Origin: Hymenobacter metallicola
Lineage (GTDB): Bacteria; Bacteroidota; Bacteroidia; Cytophagales; Hymenobacteraceae
Length of the DNA stretch: 64,000 nucleotides
Assembly: GCF_004745645.1 (NCBI RefSeq)
Contig: NZ_SRMB01000001.1
Coordinates: 310,001-374,000 of the forward strand
Direction: 5' to 3'
In this document: piece after piece, positions 3,741 through 52,276 of the stretch
Layout of the letters: each line of letters begins with the position of its first letter
Position numbering within the stretch: the stretch's first letter is position 1
Position numbers and translations under genes: made by a program
Notes under the pieces: model-generated
What the model was told of the DNA's origin: nothing
What the model saw: the letters and a program-made list of their open reading frames with translations, nothing else
Databases searched by the model: none

Positions 3741-4061
3741 CTAGGCGGCCGCGGGCAGGGTCCGGAATAGGGCGGTGAGCTTCAGCAAGGCCAGGCAGTG
3801 GTGCAGCACCGGAGTAACATTGCGCAGCCACACGTGGGCCCCGGCCCGGTGCAGAATCAGCAGCTCGGAAATGACGTGACTTACGCCCAGCGTACGAAGG
3901 CACTTCAGATTGCCGCAGTCGATGAGCAGACGTGGGTATCGTTGGCGGGTGCGCTGTAAGGTGCGTACTAGCTCGGTGGCGGCCGTGGTGTCCAGATTGA
4001 TGGACATGACCGGCAGGATTGGCAGCGGCGAGAATTTCGAGGTGACGGGAGGGAAGCGCAT
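3741..4061 (-). CDS. STAS-domain-like protein
   Basis: About 106 residues from the ATG at 4061; the open frame extends further upstream but that part looks non-coding. The segment RYPRLLIDCGNLKCLRTLGV followed by a helix (SHVISELLILHRAG) and HVWLRNVTPVL has the beta-alpha pattern of STAS / anti-sigma-factor-antagonist domains. The usual phosphorylated Ser is not evident, the corresponding loop reading LRTLGVSH. Such stand-alone STAS proteins are common in Hymenobacter. The partner is unknown, and no kinase or phosphatase lies next to it. A competing minus-strand frame (3655-4137) has no recognisable domain. Confidence 0.5.
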   Translation of the reverse strand: MRFPPVTSKFSPLPILPVMSINLDTTAATELVRTLQRTRQRYPRLLIDCGNLKCLRTLGVSHVISELLILHRAGAHVWLRNVTPVLHHCLALLKLTALFRTLPAAA

Positions 4062-4315
4062 GGCAAGACGGGGTAGGGGGCTGTGAAGACAAGACCACTG
4101 CTGCTCGGCTTTCGCAGCCAGATGATGCGTGCAGCAAGATGGTTGAAGCAGGTAGTGCAAAGCTAGCCAGCTAGTTGGCCCCGGCTATGAGTCTAAATCC
4201 TGATTTTGCGCTTACGTAATTGCCTCTGGGGCTTGGGTAGTTTTCCCGCCGGCTCCGGGCTTAGCACTGGCTCCGCCGGCGCGGTAGTGGCTTATACTGG
4301 AACTAGTGGAGCATC
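4062..4315. other. Intergenic, no gene seen
   Basis: The short open frames here are of atypical composition and lack recognisable domains. I see no RNA structure apart from the terminator at the right edge. Confidence 0.5.
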
Positions 4316-4344
4316 AAAAAGCCCCGGTCATGTCGGCTGGGGCT
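4316..4344 (-). terminator. Terminator for the 4377-4883 gene
   Basis: Read on the minus strand, the stem AGCCCC...GGGGCT is followed by a run of five T. Confidence 0.6.
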
Positions 4345-4376
4345 GTAGTAGAGACGGCCAGGCCGAAGAACTGGTC

Positions 4377-4883
4377 CTACTGATAGTCCTTTTCGGTCAG
4401 ATAATCATAGACAAAGTCTGGGAAGGAGTGGCCCTTTTCGTAGGCTTCCAGGCACTGATACAGCTTCTCGTTGTTGAAGCGGGCCAGCTTGCCGATGCCT
4501 ACGCTGCCAAACAAGCCTAGCAGCAGACCATAACCCAGGGGCGTAACTGTCGTGGTGGTGGTACCGGAGCTGGTCGTTTTTGAGCCGGTCTGGGCAGCTA
4601 CTAGCACAATGACCCCCGCGCCAGTGGCCAGCCACAGGGCCCCGCCGGTTTTTTTACGACCAAAGAGATGCACAACGGCCCGGGCCTCCTTGTCGTTGGC
4701 GTAGCGCTTGGTGAGGTAGTCCTTGTATTGTCCCCCCGTCACTTGGGCCGGCCGCAGCAGTGGAGTGGGCAAAGTCGGGGCGGGGCTGGCCGGAGCCGCT
4801 GGGGTGGAAGTTTGGGCGAAGCTGCCGACGGTCAGGCTGCTTACCAAAGCAGCGGTAAACAGGCTGCGGCGTAAAAATGACAT
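4377..4883 (-). CDS. Exported membrane-associated protein, unknown function
   Basis: 168 residues from the ATG at 4883 (the codon nine bases upstream is TTG). A signal peptide (MSFLRRSLFTAALVSSLTVG, cleavage after SFA-Q) is followed by a Pro/Ala/Thr-rich linker. A hydrophobic segment (GALWLATGAGVIVLVAAQTG) and a second one (GYGLLLGLFGSVGIGKL) suggest two membrane passes. The C-terminal part (ARFNNEKLYQCLEAYEKG) is charged and helical. Resembles the signal peptide plus two-pass hypothetical proteins frequent in this order; no family could be named. Confidence 0.7.
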   Translation of the reverse strand: MSFLRRSLFTAALVSSLTVGSFAQTSTPAAPASPAPTLPTPLLRPAQVTGGQYKDYLTKRYANDKEARAVVHLFGRKKTGGALWLATGAGVIVLVAAQTGSKTTSSGTTTTTVTPLGYGLLLGLFGSVGIGKLARFNNEKLYQCLEAYEKGHSFPDFVYDYLTEKDYQ

Positions 4884-7515: not shown

Positions 7516-8241
7516 ATGAGACCGTACTCTTTACTCCTGATTGCCGGCCTGCTGGCCACGGCCTGCCAGAAACAAGAAGCCGTAGCGCCAGCCGAAGCGC
7601 CGGATCCGGATTGGATAAAGCTCGAAATTTCAACCGTGTTTTCCGGCGACGAAGCCTACTCCATGGCGGGCGACCTGGATAAAACCCTGCTGGTATCAAC
7701 CAATCAGAAAGTGTATTCGACTGCCGACCAGGGCAAAACCTGGCAGGAGTCGTACAACTTTTTCGGTCCCGTGCACCTGCTGCCCCGCCACGACACCGTG
7801 TTTGCCCTGCGAGCCTTACCCGCTCTGCTGGAGGGCGAGCCCCTGGCGGGCTACGCCGACATGTTTACGGTTGATTTGGGCAAAACCTGGACTTACACGA
7901 GTGTAGCGTATCCGAGAGGACAGTATCGCAACCTGACGCAGATTATCGGGCGCGTCGAAGCGGCGGGGATTACGTACCAGGTGCGGGAAAACTTCAAGCC
8001 CCAGCCCAACTCCACTTCCCGGCTGGTATTGGCTTCCGACCTGCTGCGCGTAGCGGGCAACGAATCGAAAGCCATGCGCCTGCCCGCCCGGCATTATCTT
8101 AACGGGGTGTACCTCGACTCGAACAACCGCCTGTATGTAGGAGCCTCCGGCCTGCGCTTTGATGAGGCTACCGGCGAGGTGATTACCCCAAAAGGCAAGC
8201 TGCCCGCCGTGATATACGTGTCGCGTAAGCCCTTGCCGTAG
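7516..8241 (+). CDS. Lipoprotein with Asp-box (BNR) repeats
   Basis: 241 residues from the ATG at 7516. A lipoprotein signal (SLLLIAGLLATAC) is followed by an acidic/Pro linker and a partial beta-propeller. Two Asp-box motifs are clear: STADQGKTW and TVDLGKTW. Such proteins resemble sialidase or photosystem-assembly type propellers without the catalytic residues. Probably surface-exposed and of unknown function. A strong terminator follows. Confidence 0.75.
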   Translation: MRPYSLLLIAGLLATACQKQEAVAPAEAPDPDWIKLEISTVFSGDEAYSMAGDLDKTLLVSTNQKVYSTADQGKTWQESYNFFGPVHLLPRHDTVFALRALPALLEGEPLAGYADMFTVDLGKTWTYTSVAYPRGQYRNLTQIIGRVEAAGITYQVRENFKPQPNSTSRLVLASDLLRVAGNESKAMRLPARHYLNGVYLDSNNRLYVGASGLRFDEATGEVITPKGKLPAVIYVSRKPLP

Positions 8242-41015: not shown

Positions 41016-41180
41016 ATGTACGAAAGCTTCAGAATTTTACTCGCTACGCCTACTGCCAAGGCCACGTCTCACTCTGATTTTTCAATCGGTAATATCCCTC
41101 GTGCAGGGAATCCACCCGGATGTCTAACCGCCACAAGCCCGTACCCTATTCCCTCTGGGAAGCCCAACAGGCCCGCATAG
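41016..41180 (+). CDS. 54-residue ORF overlapping the start of the PcfJ-like gene
   Basis: Begins MYESFRILLATPTAKATSHS in an AT-rich context (TAAAATAAAACATCATG) and runs 61 bp into the next gene in another frame. May be a leader ORF that couples translation, or chance. No domain. Confidence 0.25.
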   Translation: MYESFRILLATPTAKATSHSDFSIGNIPRAGNPPGCLTATSPYPIPSGKPNRPA

Positions 41181-42421
41181 TACTTGCCGCGTCTAAGCGC
41201 CTGAACTGGCGCCGCTGGACTCTCCCCGAGCAGGTCGAGCACCTGCTCTCCCTCTACGGCCCGCTGCCGCTCATCGAAGCCCGATTGGGTGAACAATCGG
41301 CGCTGACTGCCTTTTACCGCCACTGCCTGCACGAAAAGCAAGGCCCGTGGCGTGACCAGTGCGCCGGCTTGCTCCGGGGCCTGGCCCAGAAACGGACCGA
41401 GCTATTGTGGCGGCCCGAACTGGCCCCAGCCCTGGCAGCAGTGGCCAAGTGTATGCCCCACCGCTGCCGGCAACTGGCCGACTGGCACCCCCGCAGCCGC
41501 AACCCGTTTCGGCAGCTGGAAAGCCTGGTGCGCCACCTCTTCGACCAGTACGGCGACGTGCCGGCCTGGCTGATCAACTCCTGGACGGCGGGCCGCCTGC
41601 ACGACGGCCTCGACGTGGCTGCCCTGACCGTTCACCTCGGGCGGGGAGAAGCGCTACGCACCTTTCCGGGGCTGCCAGTGCCGCTGAGTCGCAAGACGGA
41701 ACACTACCTGCGCCTGGCCCCAGCGGGCTACACGTTTCTGCACGCTTTGCGCTACGCCCAGCTCGCCGCCCGCGACCAACTCGGCTGGCTCGGGCCGGTG
41801 CTCGACTCCCGCCTGGGCCGGTGCCTGGGGCGCGACGATGAGTTCTGGCTGCGCGTGGTGGACTTTTTTGCCGCGGCCCCCATGGTCGACCCCTACCAGC
41901 TGGGGCCCGTGTGCGACTGGATTCACCAGAAGCGGACCGTGGGCCTGGGCGACGAGCAGGCCCAGCCGGGCTTCTCGCTCAAGGGCCGCTCCATGCATAG
42001 TCTGCTGGCGCACACGGCGCAGTGGCACCAGCACCTCAGCCAAGCCGCCCGCCGGCCGCCCGAGCCCAGCCTGACGCTGAGCACAAGCTGGGAGCCGTTG
42101 CCGGTGCCCGACTTTGCCGGGGGCGGCAAGTTTCCGGTACGCATCACCCAGCTGCGCACCTACGGCGAGTTGCTAACGGAAGGCCGCAGCCTGCGGCACT
42201 GCGTGGCGTCTTATCTGGACGCCTGCCGGCGGGGGCGCAGCGGCATCTTTTCTCTGACCCTCAACGGCACCCGCACCGTGACGCTGGAAGTGCAGGCCAA
42301 CCGTACCGTGGTGCAAGCCCGGGGCCTGTTCAACCGCCGCCCCAACGATGAGGAAGCCCTCTGGGTGCAACGCTGGGCTGCCCATAACCGCCTGCTGGTG
42401 CCCAGGCACCTGCTGAGTTAG
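41120..42421 (+). CDS. PcfJ-like protein
   Basis: 433 residues. The C-terminal region holds the PcfJ-like signature: ITQLRTYGELLTEGRSLRHC then VASYLDACRRGRSGIFSLTL then RTVTLEVQANRTVVQARGLF and FNRRPNDEEALWVQRWAAHN. The N-terminal 300 residues are helical and rich in Arg/Trp/His. PcfJ-like proteins are found on plasmids and in accessory loci; their biochemical role is unknown. It stands 47 bp before the Ro60 gene on the same strand, so it is the likely first gene of the RNA-repair operon and may bind RNA. Confidence 0.75.
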   Translation: MSNRHKPVPYSLWEAQQARIVLAASKRLNWRRWTLPEQVEHLLSLYGPLPLIEARLGEQSALTAFYRHCLHEKQGPWRDQCAGLLRGLAQKRTELLWRPELAPALAAVAKCMPHRCRQLADWHPRSRNPFRQLESLVRHLFDQYGDVPAWLINSWTAGRLHDGLDVAALTVHLGRGEALRTFPGLPVPLSRKTEHYLRLAPAGYTFLHALRYAQLAARDQLGWLGPVLDSRLGRCLGRDDEFWLRVVDFFAAAPMVDPYQLGPVCDWIHQKRTVGLGDEQAQPGFSLKGRSMHSLLAHTAQWHQHLSQAARRPPEPSLTLSTSWEPLPVPDFAGGGKFPVRITQLRTYGELLTEGRSLRHCVASYLDACRRGRSGIFSLTLNGTRTVTLEVQANRTVVQARGLFNRRPNDEEALWVQRWAAHNRLLVPRHLLS

Positions 42422-42468: not shown

Positions 42469-43992
42469 ATGCGCTTCAATCTACCCTTCCGCAAAGTGCA
42501 ACCGGTCCTCAACCACGAAGGCGCGGTAGCTTATACCCTCACGCCCCAGCTGGAGCTGTACGCGGCCGTAGCCACGGCCGCCCTGAGCGACCAGTTTTAC
42601 GAAAAAGCCGACACCCGCTTGCAACGCCTGCGCGAGTTGGTAGCCCGCAACGACCCCGAATTCGTGGCCCGGCTGGCCGTGTACGCCCGCGAGCAGCTTT
42701 ACCTGCGCACCGTACCCTTGGTGCTGACCGTGGAGCTGGCCCGCCGGCACCAAGGCAACAGCCTCGTGAGCCGCCTGGTGGCCCGGGTGGTGCAGCGCGC
42801 CGACGAAATCACCGAGCTGCTGGCCTACTACGCCCGGGCCAACGAGCGGGACGGAGCCAAAACCCTTAACCGTCTTTCCAAGCAAGTGCAGAAGGGCCTG
42901 GCTATGAGCTTCAACCGCTTCGACGGCTACCAGCTGGCCAAGTACGACCGGTCCGGGCCGGTGCGCCTGCGCGACGCCCTGTTCCTGGTGCACCCCACCG
43001 CCCGCGACGCCGAGCAGCAAGCCTTGTTCGACCAGCTCGTGCAGGGTACTTTGCCCACCCCTTACACCTGGGAAACCGAGTTGTCGGCCCTGGGCCAGCG
43101 GGGTTTTGCCTCGGCTGAAGAGCGGGCCGCGGCTTTCCGTAGCACCTGGGAAACCCTGATTAGCAGCGGCAAGCTGGGCTACATGGCCTTGCTGCGCAAC
43201 CTGCGCAATATCCTCGACGCCGGCGTGTCGGCTGGAGCCGTGGAGCGGGTGTGTGCTACGCTCAGCAACGAGCAGGCCGTGGGCCGCGCCAAGCAGCTGC
43301 CCTTCCGCTTCCTGGCCGCCTACCGCGAGGTGCTGGTCTTGAAGTCGGGCTACGTGAGCGTGGTGCTCGAAGCCCTAGAAACGGCCATTGCCCACAGCGT
43401 GGTCAACCTGCGTGGCTTCGCGGCCGATACCCGCGTGGTAGTGGCCTGCGACGTGTCGGGCTCGATGCAGCAGCCGGTGTCGGCGCGCAGCAAAGTACTG
43501 CTCTACGACGTAGGCCTGGTGCTCGGGATGCTGTTGCAGAGCCGCTGCGGCCACGTCGTGACGGGCATGTTCGGCGACACGTGGAAGCGCATCAGCCTGC
43601 CCCGGGGCCGGACCCTGCAAAACGTGCAGGAGTTCTACCGCCGCGAAGGCGAGGTGGGCTACAGCACCAACGGGCATCTGGTCATCAAGGACCTGGTGCA
43701 GCGCCGGGAGGTGGTAGATAAGGTGATGATCTTCACTGACTGCCAGCTCTGGAACAGCACCGGCGACGGCGGCACCCTGGCCCAGGCCTGGCTGGACTAC
43801 CGCCGCACCGTGGCGCCCCAGGCCCGGCTTTACCTCTTCGACTTGGCCGGCCACGGCTCGGCCCCGCTCGAAGTGCGCGAAGGCCACGGCGTGGCGCTGA
43901 TTGCCGGCTGGTCGGATAAAGTATTCGATGTGCTGCAGGCGCTGGAAAACCAGGGCTCGGCGCTAACTGAAATTGAAAAAATTGAACTGTAG
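42469..43992 (+). CDS. rsr: TROVE-domain Ro60/Rsr RNA-binding ring protein
   Basis: 507 residues, typical length for bacterial Ro (Rsr). The N-terminal two thirds form the TROVE HEAT-like ring (QLELYAAVATAALSDQFYEK, LARRHQGNSLVSRLVARVVQ, KLGYMALLRNLRNILDAGVS, AKQLPFRFLAAYREVL). The C-terminal third is a vWA domain with an intact MIDAS: ACDVSGSMQQ near residue 328, followed by GMFGDTW and MIFTDCQLWNSTGDGG. Ro rings bind misfolded RNAs and Y RNAs and can gate an exonuclease. The tRNA-like RNA array 1.2 kb downstream is its expected Y-RNA partner set. Confidence 0.95.
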   Translation: MRFNLPFRKVQPVLNHEGAVAYTLTPQLELYAAVATAALSDQFYEKADTRLQRLRELVARNDPEFVARLAVYAREQLYLRTVPLVLTVELARRHQGNSLVSRLVARVVQRADEITELLAYYARANERDGAKTLNRLSKQVQKGLAMSFNRFDGYQLAKYDRSGPVRLRDALFLVHPTARDAEQQALFDQLVQGTLPTPYTWETELSALGQRGFASAEERAAAFRSTWETLISSGKLGYMALLRNLRNILDAGVSAGAVERVCATLSNEQAVGRAKQLPFRFLAAYREVLVLKSGYVSVVLEALETAIAHSVVNLRGFAADTRVVVACDVSGSMQQPVSARSKVLLYDVGLVLGMLLQSRCGHVVTGMFGDTWKRISLPRGRTLQNVQEFYRREGEVGYSTNGHLVIKDLVQRREVVDKVMIFTDCQLWNSTGDGGTLAQAWLDYRRTVAPQARLYLFDLAGHGSAPLEVREGHGVALIAGWSDKVFDVLQALENQGSALTEIEKIEL

Positions 43993-44126: not shown

Positions 44127-44960
44127 ATGAACCGTGAACAACGTCAACACCTGGCCCGCCTCACCCTCGAAGCCCTCAACACCGGCCGTTACCATACGGG
44201 TAGCGGCACGGAAGTCAGCATCGAGGCCTGGCAACACGCTGCCATGCAAGGCAGTCTGCTCTACCGGCCGGCGGACGCCACAGCGGTGGGGCAGGAACCC
44301 GGACTCGCCGGAAACGCCCAGGGCGAAGTGCGCGTGTACCAGGCCACCACGCTCGAAGCGGCGGCGGCCCTGAGCCGGCAATTTGCCCGCGTCGGGGTGC
44401 TCAACTTTGCCTCGGCCCGCAACCCTGGCGGCGGGTTTTTGGGCGGAAGCCAGGCCCAGGAAGAAAGCCTGGCCCGCTCCTCCGGCCTGTATCCGTGCAT
44501 TGCCCAATTCCGGGAAATGTACGAGCACAACGCCCACCTCAACGGCTTCTACAGCGACTACGCCATCTACTCGCCCGGGGTGCCGGTGCTGCGTACCGAC
44601 GCTGGCGACTGGCTTTCGGAGCCCTACCGCGTCGACATCATCACCTCGCCGGCCGTGAATGCCGGGGCGCTGCGCCGCAATTCGCCCGAGCTGCTGCCGG
44701 AGCTGGAGCCCACCATGCGGCGGCGCATCCGGCAGGTGCTGGGCATGGCCGCCCGCCCCGGCTGCGAGGCCCTGGTGCTGGGCGCCTGGGGCTGCGGCGT
44801 CTTCGGCAACGACCCGGCTCAGGTGGCCCGGCTGTTTGCCGAAGCCCTGACCCAGCCTGGCTGGCGCAACCAGTTCAAGCGCATCGACTTTGCCATCTTC
44901 GACCCCAACGCTCCGCACGCCGTGCTTGGCGCGTTTGAGGCCGAGCTGGCCGGCGTGTAA
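44127..44960 (+). CDS. Bacterial-type poly(ADP-ribose) glycohydrolase / TIGR02452 macrodomain
   Basis: 277 residues. The PARG signature is present: NPGGGFLGGSQAQEESLAR (GGG-x6-QEE, residues about 100-118). Also characteristic are VLNFASARNPGG, SGLYPCI, VDIITSPAVNAGALR and ALVLGAWGCGVFGNDP. Such enzymes remove ADP-ribose from proteins or nucleic-acid ends. In this locus the substrate may be an ADP-ribosylated RNA end or a repair intermediate; that is inference from position between Ro60 and RtcB. Confidence 0.9.
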   Translation: MNREQRQHLARLTLEALNTGRYHTGSGTEVSIEAWQHAAMQGSLLYRPADATAVGQEPGLAGNAQGEVRVYQATTLEAAAALSRQFARVGVLNFASARNPGGGFLGGSQAQEESLARSSGLYPCIAQFREMYEHNAHLNGFYSDYAIYSPGVPVLRTDAGDWLSEPYRVDIITSPAVNAGALRRNSPELLPELEPTMRRRIRQVLGMAARPGCEALVLGAWGCGVFGNDPAQVARLFAEALTQPGWRNQFKRIDFAIFDPNAPHAVLGAFEAELAGV

Positions 44961-44976
44961 GCTCTGGGTTGACCGC

Positions 44977-45061
44977 TGTAGAGACGTATGCGTGCGTCTC
45001 CTCGTTGAACGACAATCCTACACCAGCCGCAACGGTGGAGACGCACGCATACGTCTCTACA
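44977..45061. repeat. MITE-like inverted repeat, 24-bp perfect arms
   Basis: Arms 44977-45000 and 45038-45061: TGTAGAGACGTATGCGTGCG + TCTC and its exact complement, separated by 37 nt. Short GTAGAGACG.../...CGTCTCTAC palindromes are dispersed in several phyla. It sits right after the PARG stop and before the RNA array. Confidence 0.75.
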
Positions 45062-45157
45062 CGCGGCTGGCACTCCCTTTCACTTCTAAAGCCAACCTAG
45101 TCGGGGGCCTAAATGCATAGCCAATCGGGCCGGGCCCGCCTCCGACTATTGGGTAAC

Positions 45158-45307
45158 CAACTCTTAGCCAGGTGCCGTAGCAGGGCGTTACTTCGGGGAG
45201 TTTTCAGGCTGTTCGGCAACGAGCGGTTACGGGTTCGAATCCCGCGCGGTGGTTTAGGCCGCCGTAGGAAAACATTCGCTGGCGTCTGTTGCCCTTGCTT
45301 TGGGTTG
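45158..45307 (+). ncRNA. Y-RNA-like unit 1 (permuted tRNA body)
   Basis: Outer stem: CAACTC (45158-45163) with GGGTTG (45302-45307). The Ro-stem core GGTG (45171-45174) pairs with TTG-C-CC (45289-45294), leaving C45292 bulged. 5' element GGTGCCGTAG at 45171. T-arm 45229-45245 with loop TTCGAAT, then an acceptor-like stem GCGGTGG / CCGCCGT (45246-45252 with 45259-45265) closed by loop TTTAGG. The D-arm side is degenerate. No anticodon loop or CCA. Confidence 0.65.
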
Positions 45308-45330
45308 ACTTTAGCAAGCAAAATATCCCG

Positions 45331-45467
45331 CCGGGTGTCGTCGGGAAGCGTTCCTTCGGGTCGCGGGTTCGAGTCCCGCCTGTTGCCGTCTGGTTCTTCA
45401 GCGGCGAGAGTAGCTCAGTTGGTTAGAGCGGAAAGGCTGCGGCCGCGCTTCCCTTTTATTACCCTGG
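45331..45467 (+). ncRNA. Y-RNA-like unit 2 (permuted tRNA body, type 2 stem)
   Basis: Stem CCGGG-T-G (45331-45337) with TT-A-C-CCTGG (45459-45467), C45462 bulged; U-A replaces the U-G of type 1. 5' element GGGTGTCGTCGGG, 3' element ATTACCC. T-arm 45363-45379 (GCGGG TTCGAGT CCCGC). Acceptor CTGTTGC (45380-45386) with GCGAGAG (45404-45410), six of seven pairs, loop of 17 nt. Canonical D-arm 45413-45429 GCTCAGTTGGTTAGAGC. An additional helix GGGAAGCG (45343) / CGCTTCCC (45446) is possible. Confidence 0.75.
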
Positions 45468-45484
45468 ATGGGGCGTTTTATCCG

Positions 45485-45643
45485 TTCTTTTTTCGGGTGC
45501 CGTAGGGGCGCAATCCTTCGTTCCGGGCTGGAAGCCGCAAGGCGTGCGGGTTCAACTCCCGCCCGGTGGCCGCGAGGCCGCCGGTGGCGAAAGGTAGACG
45601 CACCAGCAGTTAGGGCGCCCCGCCTGTTGCCCCGAAATCAGAA
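45485..45643 (+). ncRNA. Y-RNA-like unit 3 (Leu-type permuted tRNA body)
   Basis: Outer stem TTCTTTTTTCGGG (45485-45497) with CCCGAAATCAGAA (45631-45643), 11 of 13 pairs; bulged C45630; T45498-G45629. T-arm 45546-45562 with loop TTCAACT. The acceptor stem is a perfect nine-pair helix (one G-U) 45563-45571 / 45576-45584 capped by the GNRA tetraloop GCGA. The D-region TGGCGAAAGGTAGACGCACC matches the D-arm of leucine tRNAs. Confidence 0.8.
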
Positions 45644-45654
45644 TAGAATAGTAC

Positions 45655-45799
45655 CTCGTTGGGTGCCGTAGCCTAGCCTTACTTCGCACTTTTAATGCCC
45701 GGGTCGGGGGTTCGAGTCCCCCTCGTCACTCCCCGGATTGACGGTAGCTCAGCTGGGTAGAGCAGGATAACGGGCTGGGCACCCAGTTGCCCCAACGAG
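45655..45799 (+). ncRNA. Y-RNA-like unit 4 (permuted tRNA body)
   Basis: Outer stem CTCGTTGGG (45655-45663) and CCCAACGAG (45791-45799), nine perfect pairs; bulged C45790; T45664-G45789. T-arm 45706-45722 (GGGGG TTCGAGT CCCCC). Acceptor TCGTCA / TGACGG (45723-45728 with 45739-45744) with ten-base loop. Canonical D-arm 45747-45763 GCTCAGCTGGGTAGAGC. The pair GCCCG (45697) / CGGGC (45771) occupies the anticodon-stem position and continues toward the Ro stem. Confidence 0.82.
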
Positions 45800-45810
45800 T
45801 TTTGTTTGTA

Positions 45811-45957
45811 CTGCTTACCGGGTGCCGTAGGAAGGCGCTACTTCGGTGATTCTTTGGAAGAGCGGGTTCAACTCCCGCACCCCGCCGCTTCGGCGGCGGG
45901 AGCTGCGCCGGCCACGGCGCAGCGGCAACGCCCACCGTCCGTTGCCCCGGTAAGCAG
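45811..45957 (+). ncRNA. Y-RNA-like unit 5 (D-arm replaced by hairpin)
   Basis: Outer stem CTGCTTACCGGG (45811-45822) and CCCGGTAAGCAG (45946-45957), twelve perfect pairs; bulged C45945. T-arm 45862-45878 with loop TTCAACT. Acceptor CCCGCCGC / GCGGCGGG (45881-45888 with 45893-45900) capped by TTCG. Where a D-arm is expected there is a nine-pair hairpin GCTGCGCCG-GCCA-CGGCGCAGC (45902-45923). Confidence 0.78.
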
Positions 45958-45965
45958 CCTGGTTT

Positions 45966-46101
45966 TCCTGTCGTGGTGCCGTAGGGCCGCCTTTCTTCGG
46001 TTACTGAGGTCGTGGGTTCGAATCCCGCCTGCCAACTGGCAGTAGCCTAGTGGTTAGGGCGCAGTAAGGTATGGCTGCCCGCCTGGTTGCCCCCTGCAGG
46101 A
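45966..46101 (+). ncRNA. Y-RNA-like unit 6 (permuted tRNA body)
   Basis: Outer stem TCCTG (45966-45970) with CAGGA (46097-46101) continuing into GG/CC next to T45977-G46089; bulged C46090. T-arm 46012-46028 (GTGGG TTCGAAT CCCGC). Acceptor CTGCC / GGCAG (46029-46033 with 46038-46042) capped by AACT. D-arm 46045-46060 GCCTAGTGGTTAGGGC, like that of Glu/Gly-type tRNAs. Confidence 0.8.
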
Positions 46102-46102
46102 G

Positions 46103-46194
46103 CCGGGCCGGAAACGGTGTCGTCGGGTAGTATTCCTTCGTTCTGAAAATACGCCATCGGACTACCCTCTCTATTACCCGTTTCCTTAGCCCGG
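46103..46194 (+). ncRNA. Y-RNA-like unit 7 (type 2 stem, no tRNA body)
   Basis: Outer helices CCGGGC / GCCCGG (46103-46108 with 46189-46194) and GGAAACGG / CCGTTTCC (46110-46117 with 46178-46185). T46118-A46076-type pair is U-A (46118 with 46176), C46177 bulged. 5' element GTGTCGTCGGG, inner helix GGGTAGT / ACTACCC (46125-46131 with 46160-46166). Contains the type 2 3' signature TATTACCC shared with unit 2. No T-arm or D-arm. Confidence 0.65.
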
Positions 46195-46205
46195 CAGCGG
46201 CTTTT

Positions 46206-46299
46206 CCGGCCGGATGCCGTACGTCCGCGCTGCTTCGACCTGCCAATTTGGGAGTCACGCGAGTGCCCCAGGCGCGGGCGGCCCGTTGCTCCGGTCCGG
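46206..46299 (+). ncRNA. Y-RNA-like unit 8 (no tRNA body)
   Basis: Outer stem CCGG-CCGGA (46206-46214) with TCCGG-T-CCGG (46290-46299), one extra bulged T; T46215-G46288, bulged C46289. The A-U at 46214/46290 replaces the G-C of other units. 5' element ATGCCGTACG. Inner helix CCGCGC-TG / CA-G-GCGCGG. No T-arm visible. Confidence 0.6.
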
Positions 46300-46334
46300 A
46301 TTCGCTTTTCTTTTCTCGGCTACAACACGCGGCC

Positions 46335-46366
46335 GGCGGCGGCACCGAAATGTGGGTGCCGCCGCC
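46335..46366 (+). terminator. Twelve-pair hairpin between the RNA array and rtcB
   Basis: GGCGGCGGCACC / GGTGCCGCCGCC with loop GAAATGTG. No immediate U-tract (TTATTGCC follows), so it is either a partial terminator/processing element or an extra structured RNA; called a terminator with low certainty. Confidence 0.35.
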
Positions 46367-46416
46367 TTATTGCCAGCCGCTTTTTCTTTAACTTCTCGTC
46401 TGCGGACTCCTTTTTT

Positions 46417-47817
46417 ATGGCCCATCAATTACGCGGTAACGACCTGCGCCAGCTTGGCTTCCCCGAAGGCCGTGCCATCGGGCTGGCCCTGGCCCAGCTC
46501 CAGCGCAAGCACCTCAAGAAAATTTCCCTCACCGGCCAGCTGGCCCTGCTCCAGCACATCCTGGCCGCTCCCCACGACTTCTCGACTCACCTCGACTGGA
46601 GCCACGTAGCGGCCGCCCTGCTGCCGCCCCCGTCCCGCCACCTCGAACTGGTGGCCCGCAAGCCTTACACTCTCTACGGCGCCGAGCACATCGAGCCCGG
46701 CGCCCTGCACCAGATGGACACGGCCATGAAGCTGCCCGTGACCGTGGCCGGGGCCCTGATGCCCGATGCCCACCACGGCTACGGCCTGCCCATCGGCGGT
46801 GTGCTGGCTACCGATAACGCCGTGATTCCCTACGCCGTGGGCGTCGACATTGGCTGCCGCATGGCGTTGTCGGTGTTTGCTTTGCCGCCCAAGTTTATCA
46901 GCCAACGGGTGCAGGAGCTGCAAAAGTTGCTGCTCGACAATACCCGCTTCGGCAACCGCACCGGTTTCGACCGGGGCAAGAAACTAAGCCACGAAGTGCT
47001 CGACAGCGACACGTTCCGCGCCGTGCCCTTCCTGCGCAACAAGCAAGCCACGGCCGCCGAGCAAATCGGCACCTCGGGCTCGGGCAACCACTTCGTCGAG
47101 TTCGGCGTGGTCGACATCACCGACCCTAGCAACGAACTAGGCCTCGCCGTGGGGCAGTACGTGGGCCTCTTGTCGCACTCCGGCTCCCGCGGCCTGGGCG
47201 CCTCCGTGGCCAACCACTACACCAAGCTGGCTATGGAAAACTGCCAGCTCCCCCATGAGGCCAAGCACCTGGCTTGGTTGGGTCTGGATGGGGAGTTGGG
47301 GCAGGAATACTGGGCGGCCATGAGTCTGGCCGGCGACTTCGCCTCGGCCTGTCACCACCAGATTCACCAGCGCCTGGCCAAAGCCCTGGGCGAAAAGCCC
47401 CTGGCCAAGGTGGAAAACCACCACAACTTTGCCTGGAAAGAGCAGCTGCAGGATGGCCGCGAGGTTATTGTGCACCGCAAAGGCGCCACGCCGGCCGGCA
47501 AGGGCGTGCTGGGCATCATTCCCGGCTCGATGACGGCCCCCGGTTTTATCGTCCGGGGCCGGGGCGTGCCGGAGGCCCTGGGCTCCGCCTCCCACGGGGC
47601 CGGGCGGCTCATGTCGCGTACCCGGGCCAAGCAGGAGCTTACCGACGCTCAGGTGCGCCAGCATTTGAAAGCCCACGACGTGGTGCTGCAGGGCGGGGGC
47701 GTAGACGAAGCGCCCATGGCCTACAAGGACATTCACGCCGTGATGCAAAGCCAGCAGGAGTTGGTGGACGTGCTCGGCTCGTTTACGCCCAAAATTGTGC
47801 GCATGGATGGCGCGTGA
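46417..47817 (+). CDS. rtcB: RNA-splicing ligase RtcB, copy 1
   Basis: 466 residues. Manganese ligands VDIGCRM (Asp144, Cys147), SGSGNHFVEFG, LLSHSGSRG and KVENHHNFAW, plus the guanylylated-His motif SASHGAGR, are all intact. Joins RNA 3'-phosphate or 2',3'-cyclic phosphate ends to 5'-OH ends with GTP. Directly downstream of the Y-RNA-like array in the same orientation and closed by a terminator, so it is likely the last gene of the Ro/PARG/array unit. Archease and RtcA genes are absent from the window. Confidence 0.95.
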   Translation: MAHQLRGNDLRQLGFPEGRAIGLALAQLQRKHLKKISLTGQLALLQHILAAPHDFSTHLDWSHVAAALLPPPSRHLELVARKPYTLYGAEHIEPGALHQMDTAMKLPVTVAGALMPDAHHGYGLPIGGVLATDNAVIPYAVGVDIGCRMALSVFALPPKFISQRVQELQKLLLDNTRFGNRTGFDRGKKLSHEVLDSDTFRAVPFLRNKQATAAEQIGTSGSGNHFVEFGVVDITDPSNELGLAVGQYVGLLSHSGSRGLGASVANHYTKLAMENCQLPHEAKHLAWLGLDGELGQEYWAAMSLAGDFASACHHQIHQRLAKALGEKPLAKVENHHNFAWKEQLQDGREVIVHRKGATPAGKGVLGIIPGSMTAPGFIVRGRGVPEALGSASHGAGRLMSRTRAKQELTDAQVRQHLKAHDVVLQGGGVDEAPMAYKDIHAVMQSQQELVDVLGSFTPKIVRMDGA

Positions 47818-50848: not shown

Positions 50849-52276
50849 ATGTCTAAGCAAACGGTGCGCGGCAACGACCTGCGCAAGATTGGTTTTCCCG
50901 AAGGCCCCGCCATTGGCCGCGCCCTCGACGTGCTGGCCGACCGCCAGTTTAAAAAGCTCGACAAAGGCAGTGCCCTGGCTTTGCTCCAGCAAATCCAGGC
51001 CGACCCCTACAAGTTTCTGCGCGACGAAACCTGGCGCGACGTGGCCAAGGAACTCGTGCCCCAACCCAGCAACAACGTGGGCCTCAACCCCGAAATCAAG
51101 GATTACCGCCGCTACGGCGAGGAGTTTATCGAGGACGGGGCCCGCAAGCAGATGGACGTGGCCATGCAGCTGCCCGTGAGCATCGACGGGGCGCTGATGC
51201 CCGATGCCCACCAGGGCTACGGCCTGCCCATCGGCGGCGTGCTGGCCGTCGACAACGCCGTCATTCCCTACGGCGTGGGCATGGATATTGGCTGCCGCAT
51301 GGCCCTGTCGGTGTTTCCGCTGCCCGAGCACGAGCTGTATCAGCGGGCCAAGGAGCTGCGCAACATCATCCTGGCCAATACCCGCTTCGGCAACAAGTTC
51401 CCGGCCTTTGACAAGAAAATGGACGATGCCATTTTCGAGCGGCCCGAGTTCAAGGATATAGCCGTGCTGCGCGGCAAGCGCCAAACGGCCGTCGACCAGA
51501 TCGGCACCTCCGGCTCGGGCAACCACTTCGTCGAGTTCGGCGTGGTCGACATCACCGACCCCGACAACGAGCTAGACGTGCCCGTGGGCAAATACCTGGG
51601 GCTGCTCAGCCACTCGGGTTCCCGGGGCATCGGGGCGGCCGTGGCCCAGCACTACACCAAGCTGGCCATGAATGCCTGTCCGCTGCCACCCGAAGCCCGT
51701 CATTTGGCCTGGCTCAGCCTCGGCTCCCAGGCCGGACAGGAATACTGGGCGGCCATGAACCTGGCCGGCGACTACGCCTCGGCCTGCCACGACCAGATTC
51801 ACCGCCGCATCAGCCGGGCCCTGGGCGAAAAGCCGCTGGCCAAGGTGGAAAACCACCACAACTTCGCCTGGCGCGAAACGCTTTCCGACGGGCGCGAGGC
51901 CATTGTGCACCGCAAGGGCGCCACGCCGGCCGGCAAGGGCGTGCTGGGCGTGATACCCGGCTCGATGACCGCGCCCGGCTTTATCGTGCGGGGCCGGGGC
52001 GAACGGGACTCGCTACAGTCGGCTTCGCACGGGGCCGGGCGGCGCATGTCGCGGGGACAGGCCATGAAAACCCTGAAGGAAGGCGACGTGCGCCGGGAAC
52101 TCAAAGACCACGGCATCGAGCTGATGGGCGGTGGCCTGGATGAAGCGCCCATGGCCTACAAAGACATTCACCAGGTAATGGCCCACCAGCGCGACCTAGT
52201 GGATGTGCTGGGTTCCTTCACACCCAAAATTGTGCGCATGGATGCCGGCGGCAAGGGTGGTAAAGGAGGGGAGTAG
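50849..52276 (+). CDS. rtcB: RNA-splicing ligase RtcB, copy 2
   Basis: 475 residues, a close paralogue of the 46.4 kb copy with the same MDIGCRM, SGSGNHFVEFG, LLSHSGSRG, VENHHNFAW and SASHGAGR motifs. C-terminus has a Gly/Lys tail (GGKGGKGGE). Main differences are in the N-terminal 90 residues and in the segment after NTRFGN. Own terminator, and separated from copy 1 by three unrelated genes. Confidence 0.95.
   Translation: MSKQTVRGNDLRKIGFPEGPAIGRALDVLADRQFKKLDKGSALALLQQIQADPYKFLRDETWRDVAKELVPQPSNNVGLNPEIKDYRRYGEEFIEDGARKQMDVAMQLPVSIDGALMPDAHQGYGLPIGGVLAVDNAVIPYGVGMDIGCRMALSVFPLPEHELYQRAKELRNIILANTRFGNKFPAFDKKMDDAIFERPEFKDIAVLRGKRQTAVDQIGTSGSGNHFVEFGVVDITDPDNELDVPVGKYLGLLSHSGSRGIGAAVAQHYTKLAMNACPLPPEARHLAWLSLGSQAGQEYWAAMNLAGDYASACHDQIHRRISRALGEKPLAKVENHHNFAWRETLSDGREAIVHRKGATPAGKGVLGVIPGSMTAPGFIVRGRGERDSLQSASHGAGRRMSRGQAMKTLKEGDVRRELKDHGIELMGGGLDEAPMAYKDIHQVMAHQRDLVDVLGSFTPKIVRMDAGGKGGKGGE

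Follow-up and report, generated by a model that had tools for sequence, protein, structure and literature searches.

A recurrent array of predicted Y-RNA units with permuted tRNA bodies at the Ro60 locus of Hymenobacter metallicola and its relatives

The locus and its eight units

The sequence studied is a 64-kb stretch of the Hymenobacter metallicola genome, referred to here as the window, all unlabelled coordinates being positions within it. It contains a tandem array of eight predicted YrlA-like Y-RNA units, placed between a PARG gene and the first of two rtcB genes and downstream of the gene for Ro60. The genes and the units of the array are the following.

42469..43992, forward strand: Ro60/Rsr protein with TROVE and Ro60 vWA domains (Pfam PF05731, 4.5e-31; PF25045, 4.7e-8)
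44127..44960, forward strand: PARG, microbial-type (Pfam PF10021, 8.5e-44)
45158..45307, forward strand: unit 1, core at 45172; Ro stem, T-arm at 45229-45245 and acceptor-like hairpin; fold z -3.2
45326..45473, forward strand: unit 2, core at 45335; YrlA-like, with T-arm at 45363-45379 and D-arm at 45411-45429, without anticodon hairpin; fold z -2.3
45491..45636, forward strand: unit 3, core at 45497; class II, with long variable arm at 45532-45545, T-arm at 45546-45562 and CCAG:CTGG stem; fold z -0.7
45655..45799, forward strand: unit 4, core at 45663; predicted complete permuted tRNA including the anticodon arm; fold z -1.7
45686..45700, forward strand: anticodon arm of unit 4, with nucleotides (nt) 29-31 GCA, loop CTTTTAA (45689-45695) and nt 39-43 TGCCC
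45815..45953, forward strand: unit 5, core at 45822; T-arm at 45862-45878 (loop TTCAACT) and GC-rich acceptor hairpin; fold z -5.0
45967..46099, forward strand: unit 6, core at 45976; YrlA-like, with T-arm at 46012-46028 and D-arm at 46045-46060; fold z +0.1
46102..46195, forward strand: unit 7, core at 46117; hairpin-type, without T-arm; fold z -4.0
46205..46300, forward strand: unit 8, core at 46214 (ATGCCG, allowed mismatch); hairpin-type, without T-arm; fold z -1.3 (computed on 46198-46302)
46417..47817, forward strand: RtcB RNA ligase, first copy (Pfam PF01139, 1.1e-82)
50849..52276, forward strand: RtcB, second copy (Pfam PF01139, 2.9e-82)

Each unit is marked by a 5' core, GTGYCGTN(9-13)YTTCG with at most one mismatch, a pattern derived from the window units and their relatives. 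Eight such cores between PARG and rtcB agree with the original prediction, made from the bare sequence, of an eight-unit array in this place. Eight more forward matches occur elsewhere in the window, every one of them, like that of unit 8, through the allowed mismatch. In an alignment of 66 units the consensus of the 5' strand is GGTGCCGTAGGNNGGCCNTACTTCG, and a 3' motif, GTTGC, TATTAC or similar, precedes the closing strand; the Ro stem strands of unit 2 are the variant GTGTCGTC / TATTAC. The sequence TACTTCG, at the junction of the Ro stem and the tRNA body, hardly varies among the 66 aligned units, where it was never a selection criterion. Two other exact matches to GGTGCCGTAGNNNNGC exist in the genome of H. 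metallicola, neither followed by ACTTCG, and by eye both resemble coding sequence.

T-arms are present in the six units for which they had been predicted, the positions then assigned to their loops being those of the T-stem starts (45229, 45363, 45546, 45706, 45862 and 46012). The D-arms proposed for units 2, 3, 4 and 6 were recovered as well, that of unit 3 by eye and the others by script; the D-arm search gave none in units 1 and 5 and the T-arm search none in units 7 and 8. Unit 5 has a long hairpin in place of the D-arm. Unit 3, with a D-arm at 45583-45606, is Leu-like, judged by eye against the tRNA-Leu pattern. The folding-energy z values are uneven, so folding of single sequences is insufficient as proof for units 3, 6 and 8, and the case is carried by comparative pairing.

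Recurrence in relatives and the outer stem

The Ro60 of the window is 84-89% identical to the proteins of the four nearest Hymenobacter loci. A Ro60 protein search found 376 relatives, the best 80 loci of which, near relatives, were analysed; 52 of the 80 are titled Hymenobacter and the others include Pontibacter, Flavobacterium, Cesiribacter and Saprospiraceae. Cores were identified downstream of Ro60 in all 80. Within the 3.2 kb after Ro60 in 81 loci (the 80 and the window) there are 488 forward cores and 13 on the reverse strand, from 1 to 10 per locus, with at least three in 80 of the 81 loci and a single core in the remaining one. The array is a recurrent feature of the Ro60 loci examined and no peculiarity of the window locus. 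The original prediction had staked itself on recurrence in relatives, which was found. A PARG match lies at most 5 kb downstream of Ro60 in 22 of the 80 loci. RtcB was identified within the same distance in 63 of them.

A script identified a T-arm in 306 of the 488 units, and T- and D-arms together in 168. The D-arm assignment is imperfect, since three of the 168 imply closing loops of at least 53 nt and 28 imply loops of at most 2 nt (shorter acceptors or errors). For the outer stem the first 3' motif after the D-arm was taken, with no choice on pairing, which covered 157 of the 168 units and left out 11 with no 3' motif. In these 157 units, from relatives and window together, 86.4% of the cells are paired, compared with 56.3% when partners are shuffled (59.9% being the maximum of 500 shuffles), and at least seven of eight pairs form in 118 units, compared with a mean of 16.7 in the shuffles, in keeping with the earlier description of the units as stem-closed. 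The alignment of 66 units gives a higher figure, 96.0% with strong covariation, inflated because its rows were chosen partly for a long stem; the test on 157 units is the fair one.

A scan independent of the core, made on both strands of 88 sources, gave 86 full forms near Ro60 on the Ro60 strand, three far from it and none on the opposite strand, some of the 86, among them unit 2 of the window, being false positives. ACTTC stands before 73 of the 86. Near matches in loci with real tRNA clusters, for example two in the viral contig L138, may be tandem tRNA genes.

An anticodon arm in the canonical tRNA register

The original prediction held that no anticodon loop exists in the array. This is wrong for unit 4, which has the arm listed above, its CUUUUAA loop being Lys-like. 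Its nt 42-43 form base pairs with the GG of nt 27-28 (45765-45766), and six of seven acceptor pairs form. Unit 6 keeps an anticodon stem of 5 base pairs (bp), TACTG (46002-46006) with CAGTA (46062-46066), and has the Ro stem in place of the loop, which is the YrlA form. No in-register anticodon hairpin was found in units 1, 3, 5 and 6, and the match of unit 2 (loop AAGCGTT) was dropped as a false positive for its position inside the Ro stem.

The arm was assessed in all units with T- and D-arms through tRNA numbering, which fixes nt 29-31, 32-38 and 39-41 relative to the T-stem and leaves no free parameter. In the canonical register a hairpin of 3 bp and a 7-nt loop is present in 89 of the 168 units; the 12 other shifts at loop length 7 give from 1 to 14, and the next highest of 65 combinations of loop and shift is 31. 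Units were selected on the pairing of 29-31 with 39-41 alone, and positions 27:43 and 28:42 played no part. These are paired nevertheless in 86 of 89 units (27:43; GC 59, CG 27), across the T-arm, the acceptor and the D-arm, and in 88 of 89 (28:42; GC 58, AT 23, CG 4), the pair types GC, CG, AT and TA at the two positions being covariation. The letters of the tRNA core are also kept: U8 in 88, A9 in 87, A26 in 82 and U33 in 78 of the 89, with G45 in 83, G46 in 87, U47 in 81 and C48 in 80, and a purine at nt 37 in 78. The acceptor pairs are weakest at the end (1:72 in 72 of 89, 2:71 and 3:70 in 74), and by the canonical count of 7 bp the closing loop has at most 8 nt in 73 of the 168 units. Five of the 89 matches, unit 2 of the window included, were rejected as false positives inside the Ro stem, and the pair and letter figures given for 89 units still count them. 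In 81 of the remaining 84 units the hairpin begins 1-3 nt before the end of the core.

A second alignment comprises 77 of the 84 units, seven having been left out by eye (two near copies from L042 and odd rows from L011, L020, L029, L032 and L066). Double changes occur in every helix, and pairing is 97.6% compared with 39-53% in slid controls. Three of its helices (anticodon hairpin, T and D; helices 1, 3 and 5) are themselves selection criteria and helix 2 is at 100% by choice; the free test is that of the acceptor only, paired at 92.9%, and a fair view of 27:43 and 28:42 comes from the 89 units.

On account of the register, the 27:43 and 28:42 pairs and the tRNA tertiary letters, these units are read as complete tRNAs in circularly permuted order. 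In the predicted structure the Ro stem enters the anticodon stem at the break between nt 28 and nt 29, and the acceptor end is sealed. Comparative pairing demonstrates the predicted anticodon arm, its 5' strand split by the end stem, in roughly half of the units that have both T- and D-arms in the loci examined. Such a unit could not be charged as it stands, because its acceptor end is closed by a loop.

The anticodon loops were compared with those of the tRNAs of the H. metallicola genome, using 81 loops (3 of the 84 left out) and a list of 36 own-genome loops, from which tRNAs removed by a length filter are missing. The 81 loops comprise 41 distinct 7-mers, CTTTTAA being the commonest (21). 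Seven distinct loops are identical to tRNA loops of that genome (Lys, Asn, His, Gln, Glu and two Pro) where 2.4 are expected from column shuffling (P 0.0025). The body of unit 4, re-ordered, has Lys-TTT (85.5) and then His (76.0) as its best own-genome tRNAs, and unit 6 has Pro-GGG (76.5) and then Pro-CGG (68.0).

Comparison with YrlA and other known systems

With permissive settings the Rfam model of YrlA (RF02553) matches unit 6 (38.4 bits, E 1.7e-6), unit 4 (36.2 bits, E 7.3e-6) and unit 2 (33.0 bits, E 6.4e-5). This run, proposed with the original prediction, gave significant matches that all lie below the gathering score of 69 bits; the three matches uphold the description as Y-RNA-like units with permuted tRNA bodies beside Ro60 and RtcB. 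An Rfam scan of the window gave no family at its gathering score. Mimicry of a permuted tRNA by a Y RNA is already known, the circular permutation being the published YrlA fold, crystal structure PDB 6CU1 (PMC11472068). YrlA of Salmonella likewise has Ro60 and RtcB adjacent, its ends paired in a stem, and a permuted T-arm, acceptor hairpin and D-arm. The strands of the end stem differ, being GTGCCGTAG/GTTGC in the window and CgaAUGC/cUuGucGC in YrlA. A further difference is that the Rfam consensus of YrlA runs from CUA to the stem enclosing the T-arm without a hairpin, at the place where unit 4 has a full anticodon arm.

The arm also occurs beyond the 81 loci. In L161, a Bacteroidota genome with RtcR, Ro60 and RtcB, two sequences that match YrlA at 62.8 and 59.4 bits each include a GCA-loop-TGCCC hairpin, an insert absent from the Rfam model; the 59.4-bit match passes the script and the 62.8-bit match was judged by eye. 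These inserts place the anticodon arm among YrlA relatives too, and it was identified in relatives of YrlA below the cut-off both in L161 and in L158. In L162, positions 3946-4555, four YrlA matches with classical YrlA strands lie in 610 bases between an open reading frame (ORF) with a Ro60 domain and an RtcB ORF, and this is a further predicted Y-RNA array.

The operon rsr-yrlBA-rtcBA of S. Typhimurium holds Ro60, Y RNAs and RtcB together, as in the window (PMC7790460). It differs in having two units, yrlB and yrlA, against eight in the window, where there are also PARG and two rtcB copies. Permuted tRNA genes of algae and an archaeon likewise have the 3' half before the 5' half, joined through the acceptor (PMC3978253). 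In contrast to these, the units here have ends extended into the Ro stem, a break at nt 28/29 in the anticodon stem, a loop that seals the acceptor end and an anticodon that is not conserved; the 3'-half-first order with a complete cloverleaf is found, among the window units, in unit 4 only. Phage tRNAs that withstand anticodon nucleases are also a tRNA-shaped answer to tRNA cleavage (PMC11455837); those are working tRNAs, whereas the window units are closed mimics with a predicted link to Ro60. No account of an anticodon arm in Y RNAs or of arrays of this size was found in the literature searched, the likeliest sources (Chen 2014, Wang 2018, Sim 2020) being outside that search.

Phages, plasmids and tRNA clusters

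Nineteen regions (15 phage, 4 plasmid) were hand-picked from the 93 phage and 77 plasmid records found in searches. Eleven full-form units were identified in seven of them, beside Ro60: two each in Kikimora, CcrColossus, CcrPW and Olaya, one each in Bacillus phage G and Atuin, and one in the rtcR-rsr-Y-rtcB neighbourhood of a Rhizobium leguminosarum plasmid. The Rhizobium unit scores 60.3 bits against YrlA, below the Rfam cut-off, and has the anticodon arm. Stem-only forms alone occur in Satis, Kabachok and csAssE-Sib, and arm-less matches alone in Va1 and Halorussus. No permuted unit was found in the other seven regions (HGTV-1, cr106_1, D. gobiensis, LR745206, phiLo, SRB7757 and A. silvanus).

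In some phages the Ro60 locus is surrounded by tRNA genes. The viral contig L138 has Ro60, RtcB and 18 tRNA calls, one of which, a tRNA-Lys call by ARAGORN at 8019-8091, lies on a permuted unit; among the tRNA calls inspected it is the only one that does. Lys calls in L067, L071 and L082 were considered as mislabelled units and discarded, their sequences reading as real tRNA-Lys genes. Two GenBank labels fall on permuted Y-RNA units, tRNA-Ser in Brevundimonas phage Kikimora (L143, 3757-3831) and tRNA-Gln in Caulobacter phage CcrColossus (L144, 3152-3219). One tRNA finder and two GenBank records thus label some permuted units as real tRNAs, which calls for caution. The Kikimora region also contains a permuted transfer-messenger RNA (RF04321, 57.7 bits, L143, 7332-7677). 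In L071, Ro60 is accompanied by 17 ARAGORN tRNA calls, Thg1, two RNA ligases, an RNase T-type exonuclease and a reverse transcriptase, and the region looks like a tRNA-repair island.

Proposed function and rival explanations

As sequence features, the array, its recurrence, the paired end stem and the permuted T-arm, acceptor and D-arm are demonstrated. We read the array as eight tandem YrlA-like Y-RNA units, likely tRNA look-alikes bound by Ro60 that would serve as decoys or tethers for tRNA-handling enzymes and be resealed by RtcB, a reading to which we give an even chance. The array would be transcribed and then processed into single units, which Ro60 would bind through the end stem; the tRNA face would be presented to anticodon nucleases, PNPase and tRNA-modifying enzymes, and anticodon nucleases may bind or cut the loop, after which RtcB would reseal the cut units. 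A bolder form, possible and on balance rather unlikely, is that Ro60 carries a swappable library of complete permuted tRNAs, whose freely drifting loops are bait that absorbs anticodon-cutting enzymes in bacteria and large phages, with RtcB resealing them; the Ro60 stem would then enter the anticodon stem through its 5' strand, and the acceptor end would be sealed. The Salmonella RNA repair operon responds to tRNA fragments, and YrlA has been proposed to inhibit an anticodon nuclease by competition (PMC7790460). A broad class of units that retains the anticodon arm, split by the Ro60 stem, moves the question from a partial tRNA on Ro60 to which anticodon-reading or anticodon-cutting enzyme receives the fake, and supplies exact loops for testing; it would link Ro60, RtcB and tRNA damage in bacteria and phages.

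Several observations weigh against the decoy reading. The full anticodon arm is present in only one of the eight window units, and two units have no T-arm. The minimum free energy fold of unit 4 (-60.3) is without the anticodon hairpin, the constrained tRNA-like fold being at -53.9; the tRNAs of the same genome have the hairpin in their minimum free energy fold in only 17 of 41 cases. According to PMC7790460, YrlA of S. Typhimurium is not cut by the RecA-dependent tRNA nuclease. In pairs of relatives chosen without regard to triplet or closing loop, the triplet 34-36 changes in 32 of 99 cases compared with 85 of 273 for the closing loop (P 0.46 at the 80% identity threshold); at 85, 90 and 94% identity P is 0.42, 0.036 and 0.45, only one of four thresholds being below 0.05. 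With the triplet and the closing loop changing about equally fast, selection for particular anticodons leaves no consistent trace. The idea that the triplet is under diversifying selection was considered and rejected: the small P values in its favour came from pairs chosen for identity outside the triplet, a choice that biases the comparison, for which reason they are discounted, and unbiased pairs give no consistent speed-up. U33 and the stems are mostly kept between relatives. The shape of the loop appears constrained and its identity free, which speaks against a role in decoding and also against decoys matched to a single isotype.

The simplest competing explanation is a YrlA-type tether in which the arm is filler. 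The units would gate Ro60 and tether PNPase as in Salmonella and Deinococcus, the copies would raise dosage and the arm would fill a three-way junction. RYPER tethering is given as the known role (PMC8394870), three of the window units match YrlA, the unit types differ widely among themselves and the triplet changes about as fast as the closing loop. This explanation is quite possible, if short of probable. Filler, however, would not require U33 or a purine at nt 37, each kept in 78 of 89 units, nor the exact 7-nt tRNA register, nor above-chance matches to real tRNA loops. The complete tRNA anatomy of unit 4, the adjoining RtcB and the precedent of algae and one archaeon (PMC3978253) recommend another explanation, that the units are permuted pre-tRNAs which, after cuts at the end stem and the acceptor loop, would be joined by RtcB from nt 28 to nt 29 to give working tRNAs. 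It is very improbable, given that the genome already has 46 tRNA matches, Lys-TTT among them, that the acceptor pairs fail most at the end and the closing loops are often short, that anticodons differ between close relatives, and that, of the six window units with a T-arm, five are without an in-register anticodon hairpin; on this evidence the array was rejected as a source of working tRNAs.

Functionless decay of tandem tRNA genes has some footing in that tandem real tRNA genes also match the permuted-tRNA model built here, model R1 (an own-genome Val-Val pair at 56.9 bits), and in that two tandem Thr genes likewise pass the full criterion. Against it, ARAGORN calls no tRNA in the window, the end stem and the core motif are no tRNA parts, and the 27:43 and 28:42 pairs and the acceptor stem, on which there was no selection, are kept by double changes; this origin is hardly credible. 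Unit 4 scores 82.5 bits against R1, being itself part of the model's alignment. As a genome-wide detector R1 was rejected: tandem real tRNA genes trigger it, and matches turn up in 295 of the 296 Bacteroidota genomes. An R1 match lies at most 3 kb from TROVE in at least 17 of 21 genomes with TROVE, two of them upstream. The TROVE genome search passed over the Ro60 of L161 and of L162, both of which were found by hmmscan of ORFs.

Other features of the locus

A Sigma-70 promoter scan of 44900-46450 found none, and the same interval has four terminator-like sites where 2.8 are expected. RtcR has one match in the genome, with a score at the cut-off and on a different contig from the array. Directly 5' of Ro60 lies a gene for a PcfJ-like protein (41120-42421), a relative of which is found at most 2 kb upstream of Ro60 in 23 of the 80 loci. 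Between PARG and the array, at 44977-45062, is a long inverted repeat (GTAGAGACG...CGTCTCTAC), possibly a repetitive extragenic palindrome (REP) or an element of the miniature inverted-repeat transposable element (MITE) type; the motif of one arm appears again at 4348.

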